The notes under the pieces: generated by a model | What the model was told of the DNA's origin: nothing | What the model saw: the letters and a program-made list of their open reading frames with translations, nothing else | Databases searched by the model: none | From: Paracoccus thiocyanatus | GTDB taxonomy: Bacteria > Pseudomonadota > Alphaproteobacteria > Rhodobacterales > Rhodobacteraceae | DNA: 64,000 bases | Assembly (NCBI RefSeq): GCF_900156255.1 | Contig: NZ_FTMK01000013.1 | Location: 1 to 64,000, forward strand | Reading direction: 5' to 3' | Position numbers and translations under genes: made by a program | In this document: positions 15,445-62,735 of the stretch, one piece after another | How positions within the stretch are numbered: the stretch's first letter is position 1 | Layout: each line of letters starts with the position of its first letter

Positions 15445-16008
15445 TCAGGCGCGGCTGATCTCGGCCAGCCAGACCTGCGGGGCCGGGGCGATGGGCTGCG
15501 CGGCCTCGGGTCCGTCGCACAGCAGCGCGTCCAGCGGCTCCAGCGCCACGGCGCGGCCGGCAAGATCCAGCACCACCGGCCCGGTCGCAAGCAGCAGCCG
15601 CCAATCCGCTGGACGCTGGACCGCCTGGGTCAATCGCGACAGCCGGTGGGTAAAGCCGCCGCGCCGCGTCATCACGTTCAGGTCGGTGATCGGCCCGGCA
15701 AGCAGCCGCGCCGAACAGGGCTGATCCGCAGGAAAGGACAGGGGCGGCCCGTCCGGCGTCAGCGCCTGCGGGTCCCGTCCCTGCACCTGCAATTCGATCC
15801 CCTTGCCGGTCAGCACCGCCAGGCTGCGGTCGATCTGCGGAAAGATCGAGAAATCGCCATCCTCGGCCACGTCCGCCATGCTGACGCGCCAGCCGAAATC
15901 CGCAAGGCCCGCGGGCGGCGGATGAATGGCGATCTGAACCGTTTGGCCGCGCCCGTTCTTCCACGGCATCCGGCGGTGATCGGCGGCTTTCAGAATGCGG
16001 TAGGCCAT
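15445..16008 (-). CDS. hutD: HutD/Ves family protein
   Basis: A 187-residue cupin-like protein of the HutD family, seen in the start MAYRILKAADHRRMPWKNG and the FGWRVSMADVAEDGDFS and RGGFTHRLSRL blocks. HutD proteins were described beside histidine-utilisation genes, where one is proposed to limit hut expression; the biochemical role is not known. No hut genes are visible here. It is instead the last gene after the pxp/biotin carboxylase/AbrB-family genes, 14 bases from the AbrB-family stop. Confidence 0.85.
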   Translation of the reverse strand: MAYRILKAADHRRMPWKNGRGQTVQIAIHPPPAGLADFGWRVSMADVAEDGDFSIFPQIDRSLAVLTGKGIELQVQGRDPQALTPDGPPLSFPADQPCSARLLAGPITDLNVMTRRGGFTHRLSRLTQAVQRPADWRLLLATGPVVLDLAGRAVALEPLDALLCDGPEAAQPIAPAPQVWLAEISRA

Positions 16009-16022
16009 TCGGGTCTTTCCTC

Positions 16023-17054
16023 TTAGCGTTGCCGGTTCAGCAATTTTCCCGCCACCGGGGCCAGCACGATGACGATGACCATGCGCAGCAGGTGGTGGCT
16101 GACGACATAGGCCAGGTCCGCCCCGGCGATCAGCGCGATCACCACCATTTCGGCCTGTCCGCCCGGCAGAAAGGCCAGGAATGCATCAAGCGCCGGGGCC
16201 AGGCCAAGATGCATGATCGCTTCGATGAAAACCAGGCTGATCCCGGCCAAGAGCAGCGCATAGGCCATGCCGGCCGTCACATGCAGCCGCAATTCGCGCA
16301 GGGTGATGCCGGCATATTTCACCCCGACCGCGATGCCGATGAAGAATTGCGCGGCCTGGATCATCTCGGCCGGCGGGCGGTGGCTGATCAGGCCCGACAG
16401 CGACAGCGCCGCCGTCAGCACCATCGGCCCCAGGATCGAGGCGCCAAAGACGCCCAGCCGCTCGGCCCCTTTCCAGCCGACCAGCCCGGCGGCGAGCATC
16501 AGCGCGATCTCGGCTGCGCCGGTCGCGCGCATCGGCGCGCCGGGCGGCTGCGTCAGGTCCAGGCCCCACCAACTGGACATGATCAGCGGCGCGACGGTGA
16601 CGATCACCAGGACCCGCGTCGCATGGATCAGCGACAAGGCGCGGACGTCGCCGCCCGCCTCTTCGCCAAAGACCAACATGTCCTGCAAGCCGCCGGGCAT
16701 GGCGCCATACCAGGCCGTCGCATGGTCAAAGCCGAAGCCGCGGCGAAACAGCGGATAGCCGACCAGCGCGATCACGGCGATGAAACCCGGCACGAACAGC
16801 AGCGACGCGGCCACCTCGGGCAGTTCCGCCAGCACGCCGGGCGTGATCGAAGCGCCGACCGCGACCCCCAGGATGGTGCGCATGAAGATGCCGAACTGGC
16901 CGGCCCCGGCCAGCGGCGCACCGGCCAGCGCCGCGACCAGGCAGGCCAGCATCGGACCCAGCAGCATGGGCAGCGGCAGGTGCAGCATCACAAAGGCCGC
17001 GCCGCCCAGGGCGGCCAGCGCAAAGGTCAGAATGCGGCGGTTCAGCAGGTTCAT
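16023..17054 (-). CDS. AbrB-family integral membrane protein (COG3180)
   Basis: A 343-residue protein made of two repeated halves of hydrophobic helices, the family misleadingly named AbrB or putative ammonia monooxygenase (COG3180). It is unrelated to the Bacillus transcription factor. Typical blocks are PLPMLLGPMLACLVAAL, TAWYGAMPGGLQDML and FLAFLPGGQAEMVVIALI, where the paired PGG(Q) motifs mark the repeat. It is probably a transporter of unknown substrate. It lies 77 bases after the biotin carboxylase gene and may import or export the small molecule handled by that operon. The ATG at 17054 begins directly before the first helix. Confidence 0.85.
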   Translation of the reverse strand: MNLLNRRILTFALAALGGAAFVMLHLPLPMLLGPMLACLVAALAGAPLAGAGQFGIFMRTILGVAVGASITPGVLAELPEVAASLLFVPGFIAVIALVGYPLFRRGFGFDHATAWYGAMPGGLQDMLVFGEEAGGDVRALSLIHATRVLVIVTVAPLIMSSWWGLDLTQPPGAPMRATGAAEIALMLAAGLVGWKGAERLGVFGASILGPMVLTAALSLSGLISHRPPAEMIQAAQFFIGIAVGVKYAGITLRELRLHVTAGMAYALLLAGISLVFIEAIMHLGLAPALDAFLAFLPGGQAEMVVIALIAGADLAYVVSHHLLRMVIVIVLAPVAGKLLNRQR

Positions 17055-17131
17055 GGTGTTTTCGGCAGTCACCCGGCATTGCGCGCCGGCAGGCCGAATT
17101 GGCACGGCCCGCCGGGAAATGTCAAAGCGCC

Positions 17132-18895
17132 TTAGCCGATCCGCGCCAGCGGGTCGCCAAAGCCCAGCACATCGCCCTGCGCGGCGATGCGGGTCAGGCG
17201 GCCCGCGCGATGCGCCTCGATCCGGGTTTCCATCTTCATCGCCTCGATGGTGGCGACGATCTGGCCCTGTTCGACCTTAGCCCCGTCTTCGGCCTGCCAC
17301 AGCGTCAGCGTGCCGGGGACCGGGGCGGTCAGCACCGCTTCGTCCGTGCTGGGCGCAGCCTGGGCGGCGGGGGCGGCGGGGGGCAGGGCGGAAAGCAGAT
17401 CGGCCGGCAGGCCCAGTTCATGCCGCTTGCCGTCGATCTCAACCGCCAGGCGCAACAGCCGCGCGGGCGGGGCCGGCGCGACGCGGGGATGGGGGGCGAC
17501 CGCCTGGACCAGCGCCTTGGCGAAATCGGTCTCGATCCAGCGGGTATGGACGCGGAAATCCCCGTCCTCGGCGCGGAAATCCGGCTGGTCCAGCAGCGCG
17601 CGGGCAAAGGGCAGCACCGAGGCCACGCCCTCGATGCGGAATTCGCGCAGGGCGCGGGCGGCGCGCTCCAGCGCCTCGGCGCGGGTCGCGCCGGTCACGA
17701 TCAGCTTGGCCATCAGCGAATCGAAGCTGCCCGGCACCACCGACCCCTGGGCCACGCCGCTATCCATGCGGATGCCCGGCCCCGAGGGCGCGTCGAAGAC
17801 CTTGACCGGGCCGGGCGTGGGCAGGAAGCCGCGCGCCGGGTCTTCGGCATTGATGCGGAACTCGATGGCATGGCCGCGCGGCTGGGGCACCGTGTCGTCG
17901 GCCAGCCGCGCGCCTTGCGCCACGCGGATCATGGCGCGCACCAGGTCGATGCCGGTGGTTTCCTCGGTCACCGGATGTTCGACCTGCAACCTGGTATTCA
18001 CCTCGAGAAAGGAAATCATGCCATTGGCGGACAGCAGGTATTCCACCGTTCCCGCCCCCGAATAGCCGGCATGGGCGCAGATGGCGCGGGCGGAATCCTG
18101 GATGCGGGCGCGCTGGCCGTCGGTCAGGAACGGTGCCGGCGCTTCTTCGACCAGCTTCTGGTTGCGGCGTTGCAGGGAACAGTCGCGGGTGCCCAGCACC
18201 TTGACGGTGCCGTGCCGGTCGGCCAGCACCTGCGCCTCGACATGGCGCGGGCGGTCCAGGAACTGCTCGATGAAACACTCGCCGCGGCCAAAGGCTGACA
18301 GCGCCTCGCGGGTGGCGCTGTCGAACAGTTCTTCGACCTCTTCCAGCCGCCAGGCGACCTTCATGCCGCGGCCGCCGCCGCCGAAAGCGGCCTTGATGGC
18401 GATGGGCAGGCCGTGCTGCTTGGCAAAAGCCAGCGCCTCGGCGGCGCTTTCGACCGGGCCGGGGGTGCCGGCGACCAGCGGCGCGCCGACGGACTGGGCG
18501 ATGCGGCGGGCCTGGATCTTGTCGCCAAGCGCCCGGATCACCGATGCGTCGGGGCCGATCCAGATCAGCCCCGCATCCTGCACCGCCTGGGCGAATTCGG
18601 CGCGTTCGGACAGGAAACCATAGCCCGGATGGATGGCATCGGCCCCGGCAGCCTGGGCGATGGCAAGGATCTTGCCGGCATCCAGATAGGTCTCGGCGGG
18701 CTTGTCGCCCCCCAGCGCATGGGCCTGGTCGGCCATGCGCACGAAGATCGCGTCGCGGTCGGCATCGGCATAGACGGCGACGCTTTCGATGCCTTCGTCG
18801 CGGCAGGCGCGGATCACGCGCACGGCGATCTCGCCCCGGTTGGCGATCAGCAGGCGGCGGATCGGGCGGCTGGGGCCGGTGGCGAAGATGGTCAT
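17132..18895 (-). CDS. Biotin carboxylase with C-terminal biotin carrier domain
   Basis: A 587-residue fused biotin carboxylase-BCCP. Residues 12-455 are the ATP-grasp carboxylase ([16 protein letters not shown] start, [12 protein letters not shown] glycine loop, [16 protein letters not shown]). Residues about 515-587 are the biotinyl domain, with Lys554 in EAMKMET. It carboxylates its own biotin with ATP and bicarbonate. A carboxyltransferase partner is needed; the overlapping upstream gene encodes fused AHS1-AHS2 domains, the type used as carboxyltransferase in urea carboxylase. No acetyl- or propionyl-type beta subunit is nearby. The start overlaps the pxpBC stop (ATGA). Confidence 0.88.
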
Positions 18896-20478
18896 GCGGG
18901 CCTTTCTGGCGTGATGGCGGCAAAATCGGCGCTGGCGGTGAAGCGGATGCGGGCGCCGGGCGGAATCTGCCCGGCCAGGTCAAGCGCCCGCGGGTGCAAG
19001 GTGGCGATGACCGGATAGCCGCCGGTCAGCGGATGGTCGGCCAGAAACAGCACCGGCTGGCCGGAATGCGGGATCTGGATGGCGCCGGTTTCGGTCCCTT
19101 CCGAGGGCAGTTCGGTGGCGTCGGCCCGCGTCACCGCATCGCCTTGCAGGCGGATGCCGACGCGCGAGCTTTGTTGCGTCACCAGCCATTCCTGGCTCAG
19201 GAAATGCTTGACCATCCGGGGCGTGAACCAGTCGGTGCGGGGGCCCAGTGTCACCGGCAGCTCCACCAGATCGCCGGCTTTCGGCAGGGCGGGCTGGTCC
19301 TGGGGCTGGCCGGTGGCCCCGGCAGGGCCATTCGCAGGCGCGACCACCGCGCCCGAGGTCAGCGCGCCCGGCCCCACGAAGGCCAGCGTGTCGGTTGCGG
19401 CCGAGCCCAGGACCGGCGCGACCGCGAAGCCGCCGCGCAGTGCCAGATAGCTGCGCATCCCGGCCTGCGGCGGGTCGATGATCACCTCGTCCCCCTTGTC
19501 CAGCGCGAAGGCATGGCCGGGCGGGATCCTTTGCCCGGCCACCCGTGCCTGGCCCGCGCCCGTCAGTGCCAGCACCATCGGCTGGTCGGCGGCCATTCGG
19601 ACCGGACCCAAGGTGATCTCCAGCACCGGCCTGTCCGAGGGGTTTCCGACCGCGCGGTTCGCCCGGCGCGCCGCGCCCATGTCCAGCGCGCCCGAGGCCG
19701 AGACGCCTTGCCCGCCCTGTCCCGGCCGCCCCTCGTCCTGGAAAGTGATGGGAAAGGCGGTGAAGAGCAGGCGCAACCCTTGCCTGGGTTGCGGCTCGGG
19801 GATGGCGGCCGAGGCGTGGACCTTGGACCCGCGCGCCACGAACCGGCAGCGCATGCCGGGACGCAGCAGCGCCGGCGGATCGCGGGACAGGTCCCACATC
19901 GGCACCTTTGTGCGGCCGATCAACTGCCAGCCGCCGGGGGTTTCCTGCGGATAGACGCCGCAAAACCGCCCGGCCAGCGCCACCGAACCCGCCGGGATGC
20001 GGGTGCGCGGCGATGGCCGGCGCGGCAGGTCGAACCGCGGATCGTCGCCGGTCATATAGGCGAAACCGGGCGCAAAGCCGCAAAAGGCCACCTGCCAGGT
20101 GGTGTCCTGATGGGCGGCGATCACCTGGGCCTGGGTCAGGCCCATATGGGTGGCGACATCCGCCAGATCCTCGCCGTCATAGGTCATGGGCAGTTCGACC
20201 GTCTGGCGGGCGCGGGGGTCGGGCCGGGCGCCGGGGGCGGGCTGGCGGGCCTGCACCGCGCCGGCCAGCCGGCCGTCGGCGGCAACGCCGGGGGCGGTGC
20301 GGATCATCAGCGTGCGCGCGGCCGGGACGATCTCGGCCACGCCGGGCAGCGGATCGGCCATGAGCGCGTCGAACAGCGCCAGCGTCCGGTCCAGGTCATC
20401 CAGTTCCGCCAGCAGGGTGCGGGGCCCGATGGGCAGAAAGCGGATGGCCGGCGGGGGCGGGGCGGGGGACCCGCTCAT
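18892..20478 (-). CDS. pxpBC: PxpB-PxpC fusion: 5-oxoprolinase subunits / AHS1-AHS2 carboxyltransferase-type protein
   Basis: A 528-residue fusion. Residues 1 to about 230 match allophanate-hydrolase-subunit-1/PxpB/KipI ([37 protein letters not shown]). Residues about 240-528 match subunit-2/PxpC/KipA ([30 protein letters not shown]). With PxpA these form the ATP-dependent prokaryotic 5-oxoprolinase that opens pyroglutamate to glutamate. The same pair of domains is also the carboxyltransferase part of urea carboxylase. Start overlaps the pxpA stop, and its stop overlaps the biotin carboxylase start, so the three genes are tightly coupled. Confidence 0.9.
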
Positions 20479-21248
20479 CCCCTTGCCCGCACGGCCGGGG
20501 CGATAGTGACGCCGCCCGCCAGCAGCACCGCGCGGATGCGGGCGGCCATGGCGACCGCGCCGGGGCTGTCGCCATGCACGCAGATGCTGTCGGCTTGCAG
20601 ATGCAGGGTGGAGCCGTCCGCAGCCTCGACCACGCCCTCGCCCGCCAGACGCAGCATGCGGGCGGCGACGGTTTCGGGATCGTGCAGCACCGCGCCCGGC
20701 TCGCGGCGCGAGACAAGCTGCCCGTCGGGGCGATAGGCGCGGTCGGCAAAGGCTTCGGCGATGACGGGCAGGCCGGCCCGCGCCGCCTGGGCCAGGATCT
20801 GCGTCCCCGCCAGGCCCATCATGGCAAGCGAGGGATCGACGGCGCGGATCCCCTCGATCACCGCGGCGCCCTGTCGGGGATCGACGGCGATGGTGTTGTA
20901 AAGCGCGCCATGCGGCTTGACATAGCTGACGCGGGTGCCGGCGGCGGCGGCGATGCCTTGCAGCGCGCCGATCTGATAGACCACGTCCGCGACCAGTTCG
21001 GCATGGGTCACGTCCATCGCCCTGCGGCCGAAGCCCACCCGGTCGGGATAGGAGACATGCGCGCCGACCGCCAGGCCCCGCGCCGCCGCCTCGCGCACGG
21101 TGGCCAGGATGGTCAGCGGGTCGCCGGCGTGAAAGCCGCAGGCGACATTGGCCGAGCTGACGATGCCAAGCATGGTGGCGTCGTCGCCCATCTTCCAGGC
21201 GCCATAACCTTCGCCCAGGTCGCTGTTCAGGTCGATGTTGCGGGTCAT
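20475..21248 (-). CDS. pxpA: LamB/YcsF family protein, 5-oxoprolinase subunit A
   Basis: A 257-residue LamB/YcsF protein, the A subunit of bacterial 5-oxoprolinase. Family motifs are intact: [12 protein letters not shown] at the N-terminus, [27 protein letters not shown] and [19 protein letters not shown] precedes the ATG at 21248. First gene of the coupled set pxpA-pxpBC-biotin carboxylase. The frame stays open upstream for a long way and would encode a hydrophobic stretch, but the good Shine-Dalgarno and the family's normal start support 21248. Confidence 0.93.
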
Positions 21249-21632
21249 GTTTTCCTCGGGCGGGCGACGGATCTGAAGCTCATATACCAGATCGGCGCAA
21301 CAGGCGGCCAGCGGGATGGCGATGACGATCACCGTGGCGATGTTGCGGTCGTGGCCGCCTATACGGAGTTTCACGCCGCCATGATCGCGCCAGACCGACA
21401 GCCCGCGGCTGAGCCAGTTCCTGACCCAGGCCACCGGGCTGCGGCTGGCATGCGGCCTGCTGGACAGTCCCGGACTGCTGCGCCGGCCTATGGCAATGCC
21501 GGCATCCTGGACCGGCCGGGCCGATCCCGGCGGCGATACATCCTTTCTAGGACTTGCAACCGGCGCGGTCCTGCGACAAATCGGGCGCGGGGACGCGGCC
21601 CCTCGCGGGCCAGGCGTGAAGGAACAAGCCAA
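21249..21632 (+). other. Divergent intergenic region pxpA / HPP-CBS gene
   Basis: These 384 bases between divergent genes hold both promoters, but no convincing -35/-10 pair, riboswitch or terminator could be seen. On the minus strand the pxpA frame continues upstream as a possible single-helix segment ([17 protein letters not shown]), which I regard as non-coding. Confidence 0.5.
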
Positions 21633-23876: not shown

Positions 23877-25961
23877 ATGACATCGGACCTGCGCGTCGCC
23901 CTTTTGGGGGCCGGCTATATCGCGTCATGGCATGCCGACGCGATCAAGGCCGCGCCGGGCGCGCGGCTGGTGGCGATCTGCGACCCCGCTATCGACGCGG
24001 CCGAGGCGCTGGCCTCCAGCCACGGCGTTGCTGCCTTTGCCGACCTGGACCAGATGATCGCCGCGGGCGTTTGCGACGTGGTGCATATCCTGGCGCCGCC
24101 GGATCTGCATCGCGACCTGGCGGTGCGATGCCTGAACGCCGGCCTGCATGTGCTGGTGGAAAAGCCGGTGGCGCTGTCGGTGGCCGAGCTCGACGAGATG
24201 GAGGCCGCGGCCCAGGCCGCCGGCCGCCAGCTTGGCGCCTGCCACAACTTCCTGGGCCTGCCGGGCTATGAAAGGCTGAAGCGGGCGGTGCAAGCGGGCG
24301 ATCTGGGCGTGGTCTCCAGTGTGCAGGTCAATTGGGCGCTGCCCTTGGTGCCGCTGCGCTCGGGTCCTTACGGGCTGTGGATGCTGCGGCAGACGCAGAA
24401 CCTGCTGCTGGAGCTTGGCCCGCATCCGTTTTCCCTGGCCGCGGACCTGTTCGGCCCGCTTGAGATCGAGCATGTCAGCCTGGGCCAATGGATCACCCTG
24501 CCCGGCGGCGAGCGGCGGCCGCAAAGCTGGCGTATCCTGGCCCGCGCCGGCAAGGTGGATGTGACCATCGCCCTGTCGCTGGTCGAAACCTTTGACGACC
24601 GCTCGGTCACGCTGCGGGGTTCGTCCGGCATGGCGCGGCTGGACTATGCGGCGGATGCGCTGGTGGTCAGCCGCGACAATACCGCCGACCTGGTGCTGAA
24701 CCCGCTGGTCAAGGAATTGTCCCGCGCCGGGGCGCATCTGCGCGAAGGGCTGCGCAATGCCCTGCGCCAGGCCGCCTCGCTGAACCAGAAAAGCCCCTAT
24801 GGGCTTAGCTTCCGCGCCACCGTCGCGGGTTTCTACGATGGCATCCGCGCCGGCCGGCCCGATCCGCGCTTTGCCCCAGGCTCGGCCCGCGCGGTGATGC
24901 AGGGGATCAAGGATGCGCTGGCCTGCCTGCCCGTCCTGCCGCCGGTTCCGGCCCGGCCCGCGGGCACGCCGCAGCCGCGGGTCATGGTGATCGGCGGCAC
25001 CGGCTTCATCGGCCGCAACCTGACCCGGCGGCTGGTCCAGCGCGGCCATGACGTGCGCGTGCTGTCGCGTGGCCGCAACGGCCCCTTTTCCGACATCGCC
25101 GACCATGTCGAGACGCTGGGCGTGTCGCTGCGCGACGAGGACGGGCTGGCCGCGGCCATGCAGGGCATGGATTGCGTCTTCAACCTGGCGAAATCCACCG
25201 ACAAAAGCTGGCAGGCGGCGCTGGAAAACGACGTGGCCACGACCGAGCGCATCGGCCGCGCCGCGATCCGCGCCGGCATCGGGCGGCTGGTCCATACCGG
25301 CACCATCGCATCCTATGACATGTCCGACCCGGCCCGCACCATCACCGAGGCCAGCGATTTCGGCCAGATGGACAGCCGCAACATCTATGCCCGGTCCAAG
25401 GCCGAGGGCGAGCGGCGGCTGGTCGCCATGCAGACGCAGGGGTTGCGGCTGGTGATCGCCCGGCCCGGCATCGTGCTGGGCGACGGCGGGCCGTTGCAGC
25501 ATTGGGGCATCGGCCGCTGGCATGGCGCGGGCGCGGTGCGGCTGTGGGGCAATGGCCGCAACATCCTGCCCTTCGTGCTGGCCTGCGACGTCTCGGACGG
25601 GCTGATCGCGATGATGGAGCGGGACGAGGCGCTTGGCGAAAGCTTCAACCTGATCGGCGAGCCGATGTTTTCGGGGCGCGACTATTTCGCGGCCATCTAT
25701 CGCCGCCGCGGGGCGCGGATCCGGGTCAGCGGCTCGAACCTGACCGCGCTTTGGGCGGCGGATGCGGTCAAACAGGGGCTCAAGCGCCACGCCCTGCGCC
25801 GCAAGGGCGCCGCGCCCGCCTCGCTGGCCGATTGGAAGTCGCGCGGGCATCTGTCGCGTTTCGACAATGCCAAGCCCAAGCGCCTGCTGGGCTGGACGCC
25901 CGAGGCCGACCGCGACGCGTTTTGGCGCCGCGCCATCGACGAAGCGCATCTGTTCTGGTGA
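23877..25961 (+). CDS. Fusion of Gfo/Idh/MocA oxidoreductase and NAD-dependent epimerase/dehydratase
   Basis: A 694-residue protein with two complete NAD(P) enzymes. Residues 1 to about 355 are a Gfo/Idh/MocA oxidoreductase ([18 protein letters not shown] Rossmann loop; [11 protein letters not shown], with the catalytic-region EKP). Residues about 365-694 are an extended SDR epimerase (GGTGFIGRN from 373; catalytic Tyr504 and Lys508 in YARSK). The two may act consecutively on one nucleotide sugar or aminosugar. It follows the glycosyltransferase after nine bases. There is no frameshift: the frame is continuous through a Pro/Ala linker near 350-368. Confidence 0.88.
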
Positions 25962-59460: not shown

Positions 59461-61110
59461 ATGACCGAACGTTCCGCCGCGCCCAGGGGGTTCTTGCGCC
59501 GCCCCGAACCCAAAGCCATCGGCCATCCCGGCCGCGGCGAACAGATCGCCGCGGGCACGCTGCATCTGGGCGGCATCAGCCTTTGCGGCGATTTCTTCGC
59601 GGCCGAGCCGCCGCCCAGCCTGGCTGGGGAACTGCACGGGTTCGGCTGGCTGGACGATCTGGCGGCGGTGGGCACGCCGCGCGCCCGCGCCGTCGCCCAG
59701 GATCATGTCCTGCGCTGGATGCGCCGGCACCCCGAACCGCGGCCCGGCGCGCCGGAATGGGCGCCCGAGGTGGCGGGGCGGCGGCTGCTGCGCTGGATTT
59801 TCCACGCGGGGATGATCCTGCCGGGGCTGGATCGCGACGGGGCCGGCCCCTATTTCCACGCCCTCGACCAGCATCTGACCCATCTGCGCGACAGTTGGTA
59901 TGACAGCACCGACGGGTTGTGGCGGCTGGAGGCGCTGGCGGGGCTGGCCATCGGCGCCATGTCGCTGCGCGACCGCCAGGCCATGGCCCAGCCGGCGCTG
60001 ATCGCCCTGGCCGAAGAGGCCGATGCCATGGGCGTTGCGACCCTGTCCGAAGCCCGCTCGCCCGAAGCCCTGCTGGAGGCGATGGCGCTGCTGGTCTGGG
60101 CCCAGGAAATCGCCGAAGAGGTCGGGCTGGACGGCCCGCCCGAACTGGGTGCCACCATCGCCGAAATCGCGCCGATCCTGCGGGCGCTGCGCCATGCCGA
60201 TGGCGGCCTGCCCAGCTTTCACGGCGGTGGCCGCGGCGCGGCCGGGCGGCTGGACCGCTGCCTGCGCGCGGCCCAGGGTCCGGCCTTGCCGGTCAGCGGG
60301 CTGGCCATGGGCTTTGTCCGCATGGCGCGGGCCCGCACCACGCTGAGCCTGGACGCGGCGCCTCCGCCTGGCGGTCCGGCGGCGGTGCGCGCCCATGCCT
60401 CGACCCTGGCCTTCGAACTGACGGTGGCGCGCCAGCCCTTGATCGTGAATTGCGGCCCCGGCGACGGTTTCGGCCCGCTTTGGGCCAGGGCCAGCCGCGC
60501 CACGCCCTGCCATTCGGCGCTGTGCCTGGCCGGCCTTTCGTCGTCGCGGCTGAACCCGAACCGGCAAGAGGGCGAGCCCGACATCCTGACCGAGCGCCCG
60601 GACCTGGTCTGGGCCGGCGATTGTGATGCGCTGGGCAACCTGACCGCGCCCGATTGCGGCCCGGCGCATTCGCCGGAACCTGCGCATCTGCTGGCCGGCC
60701 ATGACGGCTGGCTGGCCAGCCACGGGCTGACGCATCTGCGCGAGCTTTGGCTTGATCCCGACGGCATGGCGCTGCGGGGCGAGGATTCGCTGGCGGCGCT
60801 GGACGCCAGCGCCCAGGCCCGCCTGGACCAGGCCCGCCCGGACGAGGGGCTGGATTTCGACATCCGCTTTCACCTGCATCCCGAAATCGAGGCCCGGCAA
60901 GAGGGGCAAGAGATCCACCTGACCCTGCCTGGGGGCGAGGAATGGCGGTTCAGCCATGACGGGGTCGGGCAGGCGCGGCTAGAGGCATCCTGCCTTCTGG
61001 ACCGCGCCATGGCCGAGCCGCGCCCGTCGCGGCAGATGGTGATTTCCGCCCGCCTGCTGGGCCGGGCGATCCAGATCGGCTGGACCTTGGCGCGTTCCGG
61101 GGTTAGGTGA
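59461..61110 (+). CDS. Heparinase II/III family protein
   Basis: A 549-residue protein with an alpha/alpha toroid half ([23 protein letters not shown] region) and a C-terminal beta-sandwich of the heparinase II/III-like domain ([29 protein letters not shown]). Family members cleave uronate polysaccharides; in alphaproteobacteria this gene commonly lies between rsmB and purH, suggesting an envelope-glycan role. No signal peptide was seen. A GTG at 59446 is an alternative start. Confidence 0.85.
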
Positions 61111-61145
61111 CGCGCCATATCATCCATGCCACGGGACCCGAACCG

Positions 61146-62735
61146 ATGACCGACCGCATTCCGCTGAAGCGCGCGCTGATTTCCGTTTCCGACAAGACCG
61201 GGCTGGTCGATTTCGCGCGGGCGCTTTCGGCGCGGGGGGTCGAGATCCTGTCGACCGGCGGCACCGCCAAGGCCCTGCGCGAGGCCGGGCTGGCCGTGGT
61301 GGACGTGGCCGACGTGACCGGCTTTCCGGAAATGATGGACGGCCGCGTCAAGACGCTGCACCCGGTGGTCCATGGCGGCCTGCTGGCGCTGCGCGACAAT
61401 GACGAACACATGGCCGCCGCGAAATCGCACAGGATCGGCATGATCGACCTGCTGGTCGTGAACCTCTATCCGTTCGAGGCGACGGTGGCCAAGGGCGCCG
61501 CCTATGACGATTGCATCGAGAATATCGACATCGGCGGCCCGGCGATGATCCGCGCCGCCGCCAAGAACCACGCCTTCGTGACCGTGGTGGTCGATGTCCA
61601 GGACTACGCCGCCGTGCTGGCCGAACTGGACGCGGGCGACGACACCACCGGCCTTGGCTTTCGCCAGCGGCAGGCGCAGATCGCCTATGCCAGGACGGCG
61701 GCCTATGACGCGGCCGTCTCGACCTGGATGGCCGGGGCCATCGGCGAGGAAACGCCCCGCCGCCGCGCTTTTGCCGGCACCTTGGCGCAAAGCCTGCGCT
61801 ATGGCGAGAACCCGCACCAGTCCGCCGCCTTCTACACGGACGGCTCGGACCGGCCGGGCGTCGCCACCGCGCGGCAATGGCAGGGCAAGGAACTTTCCTA
61901 CAACAACATCAACGACACCGACGCCGCCTTTGAACTGGTGGCCGAGTTCGACCCGGCCCAAGGCCCGGCGGTGGCGATCATCAAGCACGCCAACCCCTGC
62001 GGCGTGGCCCGCGGCGACAGCGCCGTCGATGCCTATCGGCGCGCCTTCGACTGCGACCGCACCTCGGCCTTTGGCGGTATCATCGCGCTGAACACCACGC
62101 TTGATGGCGAAACCGCGCAGGCGATTGCCGAGATCTTTACCGAACTGGTCATCGCCCCCGACGCCACCGACGAGGCGAAGGCGGTCTTCGCCGCCAAGAA
62201 GAACCTGCGCCTCTTGACCACCGGCGGGCTGCCCGATCCGGCCGCGCGGGGGCTGGCCTTTCGCCAGGTCGCCGGCGGCTTCCTGGTGCAGGGCCGCGAC
62301 AACGGCCGCATCCGGCGCGCCGACCTGAAGGTGGTGACGAAACGCCAGCCGACCGACCAGGAACTGGACGACCTGCTTTTCGCCTGGACCGTGGCCAAGC
62401 ATGTGAAATCGAACGCCATCGTCTATGCCCGCGACCTGGCCACCGTCGGCATCGGCGCCGGCCAGATGAGCCGCGTCGATTCCACCCGCATCGGCAAGCG
62501 CAAGTCCGAGGACATGGCCGAGGCGCTGGGCCTTGCGCAGGCGCCGGCGATCGGTTCCTCGGTCGCCTCGGACGCCTTCTTCCCCTTCGCCGACGGGGTC
62601 GAGGCGCTGGCCCAGGCCGGCGCGCGGGCGGTGATCCAGCCCGGCGGCTCGATGCGCGACGCCGAGGTGATCGAGGCCGCAGACCGGCTGGGCCTGGCCA
62701 TGGTCTTTACCGGCCAGCGGCATTTCCGTCACTGA
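61146..62735 (+). CDS. purH: Bifunctional AICAR transformylase / IMP cyclohydrolase
   Basis: A 529-residue enzyme for the last two purine-synthesis steps. The N-terminal cyclohydrolase (1-200) starts [19 protein letters not shown] with STGGTAKAL. The C-terminal transformylase has the catalytic Lys-His in [12 protein letters not shown] and the [12 protein letters not shown] end block. ATG 61146 matches the usual N-terminus. Its stop overlaps the lspA start (TGATG). Confidence 0.97.

Follow-up and report, generated by a model that had tools for sequence, protein, structure and literature searches.

Why should a gene for a biotin carboxylase (BC) be joined to genes of the PxpABC type, whose products open the lactam ring of 5-oxoproline? 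The question is raised by a 64,000-nucleotide stretch of the Paracoccus thiocyanatus genome (contig NZ_FTMK01000013.1, positions 1 to 64,000, hereafter the window), where pxpA, a gene of the LamB/YcsF family, is followed by a fused pxpB-pxpC gene (pxpBC) and then by a gene in which BC is fused to a biotin carboxyl carrier protein (BCCP). The three genes meet in two four-base ATGA overlaps, an arrangement which suggests that they are translationally coupled. The initial annotation had stated that the four parts of urea carboxylase occur here as two overlapping genes next to LamB/YcsF, and domain matches bear this out (Table 1). We think it probable, if by no means assured, that the trio is a split, urea-carboxylase-like biotin enzyme, in which ring opening by PxpA follows the activation of 5-oxoproline, or of a close lactam, by carboxybiotin.

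Linkage of PxpBC to an intact biotin carboxylase

Six fused PxpBC proteins were aligned, and the alignment was used to scan genome contigs for relatives of the window's PxpBC. The best 80 loci (L080-L159; more exist) were kept; being relatives of one another, these loci are not independent. A BC open reading frame (ORF) lies downstream on the same strand in 79 of the 80, and in 75 of these 79 it overlaps the PxpBC ORF or lies within 50 bases of it, the longest ORF being taken in each case; pxpA is present in 78 of the 80. The loci come from alpha-, beta- and gammaproteobacteria and from two Actinobacteria. Taking a genome to hold about five BC genes, we estimate that chance alone would produce such adjacency with a probability of about 1% at any one locus. 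The linkage of PxpBC with BC is not a product of chance, and the partnership of the two proteins is well supported. The initial annotation had called for a survey of co-occurrence, and the outcome is that the arrangement, hereafter the F-type (fused PxpBC plus BC-BCCP), is not peculiar to the window's genome. The sole exception among the 80 is Helicobacter sp. 13S00401-1 (L153), with a fused PxpBC and no BC-BCCP in the locus. This locus also carries NRAMP and D-glutamate cyclase genes, and it offers a natural test of whether PxpBC works with AccC and AccB or alone.

The BC of these loci appears catalytically intact. In an alignment of 94 F-type rows (92 distinct, two genomes being present twice), every catalytic position checked is invariant in all 94; these are the positions that we take to be K116, K159, H209, Q233, E276, E288, N290, R292, E296 and R338 in E. 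coli numbering. The biotin lysine is present in 93 of the 94 rows, and the row that lacks it (L083) ends with its contig. The window's own protein carries both residue marks of an AccA3-type alpha subunit, the BC catalytic residues and an AMKM biotin site. Its nearest relative on a plasmid record is that of Paracoccus sp. TOH (90% identity for BC-BCCP, 83.5% for PxpBC), relative to which dN/dS is 0.21 for BC-BCCP, 0.30 for PxpBC and 0.34 for PxpA.

Five BC proteins (PF02785) and four Carboxyl_trans proteins (PF01039) are encoded in the window's genome, in which PxpBC is the only CT_A_B protein found and the only carboxyltransferase (CT) of the urea carboxylase type. Of the BCs other than the window's, two are alpha subunits with their beta subunits close by, one is a chain with the size of a pyruvate carboxylase and one has the size of AccC. 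By position, size and tree we assign these four as AccC (with two weak AccA/AccD-like PF01039 matches), propionyl-CoA carboxylase, methylcrotonyl-CoA carboxylase and pyruvate carboxylase. By this assignment the four PF01039 proteins fit the other BCs, and the window's BC-BCCP, which has no PF01039 CT beside it, is the only one of the five without an ordinary carboxyltransferase and is left with PxpBC.

Beyond the F-type, linkage is variable. In a draw of 144 alphaproteobacterial genomes, CT_A_B was found in 40, at 47 places that include 5 urea carboxylases, the window itself, and one contig-edge hit and one short fragment, both excluded. Among the remaining 39 neighbourhoods, 12 have, as separate genes, BC or BCCP beside PxpB/PxpC and 27 do not; 4 of these 27 are on stretches shorter than 12 kb, so that a BC beyond the contig end is possible. 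LamB_YcsF occurs in 23 of 25 genomes of the genus to which the window belongs, and 26 further loci there comprise 9 of the F-type (2 from genomes already among the 80), 12 without BC, 2 of the separate-subunit type, 1 cut by a contig end, 1 broken in frame (L188) and 1 unclassified. At L188 (genome G148), pxpA and PxpBC are frame-broken and the BC-BCCP frame is open; a sequencing error is possible. Three genomes hold two types each, namely F-type with unlinked pxpABC (G166), F-type with the separate type (G153) and unlinked with the separate type (G158), so that the layouts are not simply interchangeable. No genome with PxpBC and without any BC, which would speak against the wider proposal given below, was found among 15 checked, a result that says little since BC is near universal.

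Table 1. Positions in the window of the three coupled genes, their domains and junctions, and of adjacent features
Feature	Positions	Strand	Remarks
pxpA (LamB/YcsF), 257 aa	20475-21248	minus	predicted lactam-ring hydrolase; PF03746, 340 bits
Fused PxpB-PxpC, 528 aa	18892-20478	minus	urea-carboxylase-type CT subunit; CT_C_D 218 bits, CT_A_B 256 bits
PxpB / KipI domain (CT_C_D), residues 13-205	19864-20442	minus	domain match
PxpC / KipA domain (CT_A_B), residues 258-514	18937-19707	minus	domain match
AccA3-like BC-BCCP fusion, 587 aa	17132-18895	minus	Biotin_carb_N, CPSase_L_D2, Biotin_carb_C, Biotin_lipoyl
Biotin carboxylase domain, residues 12-455	17531-18862	minus	domain match
BCCP (biotinyl) domain, residues 522-586	17138-17332	minus	domain match
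Codon of Lys554, EAMKM biotinylation motif	17234-17236	minus	alignment
ATGA overlap, pxpA / pxpBC	20475-20478	minus	start ATG of pxpBC over stop of pxpA
ATGA overlap, pxpBC / BC-BCCP	18892-18895	minus	start ATG of BC-BCCP over stop of pxpBC
AbrB-family membrane protein, after BC-BCCP	16023-17063	minus	PF05145; possible transporter, link uncertain
HutD/Ves family gene, last in the run	15445-16008	minus	PF05962; link uncertain
NRAMP remnant	21307-21350	not assigned	against the gene before pxpA in the Paracoccus sp. TOH locus (L031)
GntR regulator remnant	21345-21588	not assigned	against the gene before pxpA in the Paracoccus sp. TOH locus (L031)

Relation to known systems and origin of the pairing

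The PxpA of the window lies above the NCBIfam cut-off NF003814 (371.8 against 226 bits), and the equivalog cut-offs for PxpB (TIGR00370, 128.6 against 145.55 bits) and PxpC (NF045499, 173.1 against 500 bits) are not reached by the domains, which are fused here. The same three subunits or domains make up PxpABC of E. coli, B. subtilis and C. glutamicum, and a gene order like that of C. glutamicum is found in many relatives of the window's locus. In these systems, however, PxpB and PxpC are unfused, no BC gene adjoins pxpBCA in E. coli, and none is included in the published description of the C. glutamicum cluster (PMC13274462).

Likeness to urea carboxylase (KlUC, 3va7) is a likeness of parts. 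The domain kit of BC, CT (A-B and C-D) and BCCP is the same and is split over two genes in the window, whereas urea carboxylase is a single chain of about 1200 aa that stands apart from the window's lineage in the best PxpC and BC trees, although for PxpC a clade uniting the two with the separate-subunit type is not rejected (see below). The urea carboxylase cut-off of TIGR02712 (1303.85 bits) is reached neither by BC-BCCP (505.8) nor by PxpBC (133.8). The idea in the initial annotation of a split urea-carboxylase-like machine holds as far as the presence of the parts, their association in the best relatives, the intact biotin site and BC residues and the complex of homologues described below are concerned, but does not extend to the ancestry of the BC, which groups with chains of the AccA3 type. 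A derivation of the window's BC as a urea carboxylase offshoot was considered, and was dropped on the evidence of the BC trees. With AccA3 and AccBC alpha subunits, the window's protein shares the BC-BCCP fusion of about 590 aa and its clade; their partner is Carboxyl_trans (PF01039), whereas that of the window's chain is a CT of the KipI-KipA type.

A close parallel is found in mycobacteria. An AlphaFold2 model of the window's PxpBC (mean predicted local distance difference test score 90) finds its best folds in M. smegmatis MSMEG_0435-0436 (3mml), Thermus TTHA0988, E. coli YbgJK and K. lactis urea amidolyase; the PxpC half matches 3mml with Z 39, and for the same half VIA-align gives Z 34.1 and 26.6 against the urea carboxylase entries 5i8i and 3va7. 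The best PDB matches of BC-BCCP are AccA3 (696 bits) and 5mlk, a 614-aa acetyl-CoA carboxylase chain (681), the next scoring 453. By its title and chain list, PDB entry 9yx5 shows MSMEG_0435-MSMEG_0436 bound to the long chain acyl-CoA carboxylase complex of M. smegmatis, and its chains include AccA3 and both PxpB/PxpC homologues. On this evidence the pairing proposed here has already been seen between homologues, in one solved entry; no paper on 9yx5 was found by its code, by neighbouring codes or by content. The mycobacterial pair (PxpC/PxpB) is homologous to the window's protein, has the motif DHPVTGGYP, and is joined in 9yx5 to the same type of BC-BCCP. It differs in that its two proteins are not fused and that AccA3 serves there as a shared subunit, whereas the BC-BCCP gene of the window is a dedicated one and overlaps pxpBC, itself a fusion.

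A PxpC tree built from 98 rows unites the F-type proteins, that of Helicobacter included, in one clade (100/96) with a Nocardia protein as sister (100/100); the main separate-subunit type falls with urea carboxylase (100/99), and L039 and L076 fall with E. coli PxpC (100/98). In approximately unbiased (AU) tests on 38 rows, with the unlinked sister rows L036, L043, L044 and L060 counted with their linked kin, one clade of F-type, separate-subunit type and urea carboxylase is not rejected (p 0.503), and a single origin of all BC-linked types, L039 and L076 included, is rejected (p 0.027). Our claim is for this reason limited to a minimum of two separate pairings and does not extend to three.

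The F-type appears to have actinobacterial roots. A draw of Actinomycetes showed CT_A_B in 31 of 59 genomes, from which 32 loci were fetched, 3 of them urea carboxylases and 29 others; five places with ORFs longer than 1,100 aa were excluded as presumed urea carboxylases, and the F-type locus of Agrococcus (L145) was already in the set. BC lies beside PxpB/PxpC in just one of the 29 (L215). The F-type PxpC clade has a support of 99 in the Shimodaira-Hasegawa-like approximate likelihood ratio test (SH-aLRT) and lies within the actinobacterial PxpB/PxpC clade (100), but its position as a member and not a neighbour of that clade depends on nodes with support of just 80-87; its deepest rows are three Actinobacteria with linked BC, namely L215, Agrococcus L145 and Cryobacterium L141. 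The BC trees, which are quick trees with SH-aLRT and no bootstrap, agree with this in outline. In them, F-type BCs group (100) with further BC-BCCP chains of about 590-600 aa, one per genome, that were seen in 7 of the 9 actinobacterial genomes or records compared; of the other two, Cryobacterium had a candidate that was truncated at a contig end and left out, and no such chain was present in the Nocardia record, a plasmid. AccA3 itself is not a row of these trees, and the chains are called AccA3-type on account of their size and of the window's BC, whose best PDB match is AccA3. The F-type lineage may have taken its own AccA3-like copy into Proteobacteria, and in other Actinobacteria PxpB/PxpC probably borrows the housekeeping BC-BCCP, AccA3. 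The F-type BC of Cryobacterium sits among proteobacterial ones, which makes the route of transfer unsure.

The other BC-linked layouts differ from the F-type in several respects. The separate-subunit layout runs pxpA-BCCP-BC-PxpB (about 290 aa)-PxpC (L041, L057, L058, L061-L063, L065-L067, L185 and L186); its PxpC groups with urea carboxylase and has a motif of its own, AVSGGGY, and a different substrate is probable. A third pairing, at L039 (3433-8177) and L076, joins an AccC-like BC to PxpB/PxpC proteins whose place in the tree is beside E. coli PxpC, and at L039 it is flanked by genes annotated as a biotin/lipoyl-containing protein and acetyl-CoA carboxylase. The alphaproteobacterial genome G066 has four PxpB/PxpC-like pairs (L042-L044 and L060), with BC beside just one on the stretches fetched.

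A proposed mechanism and its alternatives

Urea carboxylase carboxylates an amide nitrogen with the same CT fold as that of PxpBC. By analogy, the three gene products would act as one biotin-dependent lactamase, in which the BC domain would use ATP and bicarbonate to carboxylate the biotin on BCCP, BCCP would swing to PxpBC, and PxpBC would move the carboxyl onto the lactam, most likely onto 5-oxoproline at its ring nitrogen, in the way that urea is carboxylated by urea carboxylase (domain roles in PMC5770610). A carboxyl on the lactam nitrogen would make the ring easy for PxpA to open; hydrolysis of the activated ring would give N-carboxyglutamate and, after loss of CO2, glutamate, at a net cost of one ATP per ring opened. 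The carboxyl transfer, 5-oxoproline as substrate, N-carboxylation and the order of steps are what we infer from the gene structure, the conservation, the intact residues, the want of another CT partner, the trees and the complex of homologues. For comparison, caprolactamase (CapAB) and the 5-oxoprolinase OplAB also open lactams with ATP and are described as without sequence similarity to PxpABC; caprolactamase needs bicarbonate, and lactam carboxylation is one of three options listed by its authors (PMC8453981). We found no paper proposing a biotin-dependent 5-oxoprolinase in the literature searched, outside which lie most subscription journals and bioRxiv.

Operon context points to the substrate. 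A GntR-like ORF on the opposite strand occurs in 68 of the 80 best loci, an NRAMP ORF in 40 and an ORF of the D-glutamate cyclase family (PF07286) in 43, and many F-type operons have the order GntR-NRAMP-pxpA, which is that of pxpR-pxpT-pxpA in C. glutamicum. There, pxpR (GntR) and pxpT (NRAMP family) precede pxpABC, pxpTABC is needed for growth on 5-oxo-L-proline, and PxpR binds this compound at 726 nM (PMC13274462). For the NRAMP protein of the B. subtilis pxp operon, a role as Mn2+ importer has been argued (PMC10448178). The NRAMP and D-glutamate cyclase proteins of the TOH locus are 45.5% and 55.4% identical, respectively, to their counterparts in the B. badius pxp cluster.

Several observations weigh against this reading. 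PxpABC of B. subtilis is said to have been reconstituted from three proteins (by Niehaus, in 2017), and a 1987 paper reportedly claims, by its title, a phosphorylated tetrahedral intermediate for 5-oxoprolinase. PxpB and PxpC are assumed to phosphorylate 5-oxoproline (PMC13274462), and earlier work on oxoprolinase is said to report no requirement for bicarbonate (PMC8453981). The Helicobacter PxpBC has no linked BC-BCCP, and its genome holds one AccC-like BC. No residue pattern was found that separates BC-linked from unlinked PxpBC. A signature of biotin use was sought as alignment columns common to BC-linked groups and urea carboxylase and absent from unlinked PxpBC, and gave only weak candidates (L286, A308, R342 and G503 in PxpC; T159, G182 and Q185 in PxpB); the GGWQ motif is also found in E. 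coli and B. badius and so provides no clean signature. In 9yx5 the mycobacterial pair sits on an acyl-CoA carboxylase, so its binding could be regulatory.

In the window's genome itself, three Hydantoinase_B proteins are present, of a family that includes another type of 5-oxoprolinase, so the trio need not be the sole 5-oxoproline route. The window's copy has also lost its regulator, NRAMP and cyclase genes and keeps the three-enzyme core. Remnants of the first two match the syntenic TOH locus, L031 (blastn 93% over 44 bp and 78% over 154 bp; tblastn 46% over 74 aa for GntR), no cyclase gene lies between pxpA and pxpBC in the window, and a search of the genome for PF07286 was negative. Moreover, the window's proteins have changed somewhat more than those of the TOH copy, BC the most (25, 34 and 23 window-only changes in BC with three outgroups, against 15, 10 and 13 TOH-only changes). 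The lost accessory genes and the faster protein change together suggest that the system may be fading in this genome.

Of the alternatives, that the same split carboxylase acts on a different substrate, for instance another lactam, a cyclic amide or D-5-oxoproline, is unlikely, though less so than the other two. PxpC of the F-type and of most Actinobacteria carries the motifs GPR and DHP.TGGYP; the corresponding stretches read PGPEYHEF and DAQTTGGYP in E. coli PxpC, and LGPQD and RQTTGGYP in a consensus of 39 unlinked rows. The coexistence of F-type genes with unlinked pxpABC in G166, and with the separate-subunit type in G153, also counts in its favour, and the cyclase family ORF in 43 of the 80 operons would suit the D-isomer. 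Against this stand the gene order shared with the C. glutamicum cluster, which serves 5-oxo-L-proline (PMC13274462), and the presence of both motifs in 26 of the 29 actinomycete pxp loci (the exceptions are L233 and two loci that are cut or broken, L245 and L246), among which the C. glutamicum sequence is not included.

That BC-BCCP is a scaffold or regulator, with PxpBC itself phosphorylating 5-oxoproline and the link coordinating biotin and CO2 metabolism with nitrogen scavenging, strikes us as quite improbable. Direct phosphorylation is the printed assumption (PMC13274462), what the mycobacterial pair binds in 9yx5 is an acyl-CoA carboxylase complex, and expression of the pair's genes rises 2.2 to 2.4 fold under nitrogen limitation (PMC4617892); a scaffold, however, would not need the BC catalytic positions and biotin lysine that are kept in 93-94 of 94 rows, and PxpBC has the CT fold of urea carboxylase. 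Mere neighbourhood, with BC-BCCP serving an acyl-CoA carboxylase whose CT is encoded elsewhere, would suit the best PDB match, since AccA3 is the acyl-CoA carboxylase alpha subunit common to three M. tuberculosis complexes, yet it is highly improbable given the linkage in 79 of the 80 best relatives and, by our assignment, the lack of a spare PF01039 CT in the genome.

The biotin-dependent reading can be carried further, to a proposal that we regard as doubtful: that the whole actinobacterial PxpB/PxpC clade, C. glutamicum PxpABC included, consists of cryptic biotin enzymes drawing carboxybiotin from AccA3/AccBC, and that the classical P. putida 5-oxoprolinase is the operon-encoded form. ATP would then be spent on carboxyphosphate and not on lactam phosphorylation. 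Component A of the P. putida enzyme is a hexamer of dimers with chains of 64 and 51 kDa, and component B has 82 kDa (PMC8453981). Masses computed for Pseudomonas F-type loci are 60.5-62.1 kDa for BC-BCCP in 13 of 14 (the ORF start of the other being too long), 55-57 kDa for PxpBC, and 26.5-27.2 kDa for PxpA in 13 of 14, so that component A would be BC-BCCP plus PxpBC and component B three PxpA chains. This match is a lead rather than an identification, as gel masses leave room for other families.

Neighbouring genes and wider meaning

The two genes that continue the run after BC-BCCP have an uncertain link to the trio. The AbrB-family neighbour has no matches above 40 bits in loci L031-L159, and the HutD/Ves neighbour has none in L031-L160; an abrB gene also lies two genes away from pxpBCA in E. 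coli K-12. The same operon is found on a conjugative Klebsiella plasmid (L035), and PxpBC matches occur on further Klebsiella plasmids. Elsewhere in the window, a Gfo/Idh/MocA oxidoreductase is fused to an NAD-dependent epimerase domain (23877-25961), and a 620-aa minus-strand ORF without a Pfam match (60870-62732) overlaps a 542-aa plus-strand frame and may not be a gene.

The manner in which PxpABC couples ATP to lactam opening is an assumption in the literature (PMC13274462). A widespread lineage in which an intact BC is locked to PxpABC provides a concrete and testable mechanism for this use of ATP. If the proposal is true, biotin-dependent carboxylation would be extended to lactam activation, the MSMEG_0435-0436 pair bound in 9yx5 would gain a function, and the annotation of genes now named 'urea amidolyase family protein' or 'biotin carboxylase N-terminal domain-containing protein' would be affected. 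The F-type also suggests a case in which a gene set, on entering hosts without a given type of housekeeping partner, brings along a copy of that partner.

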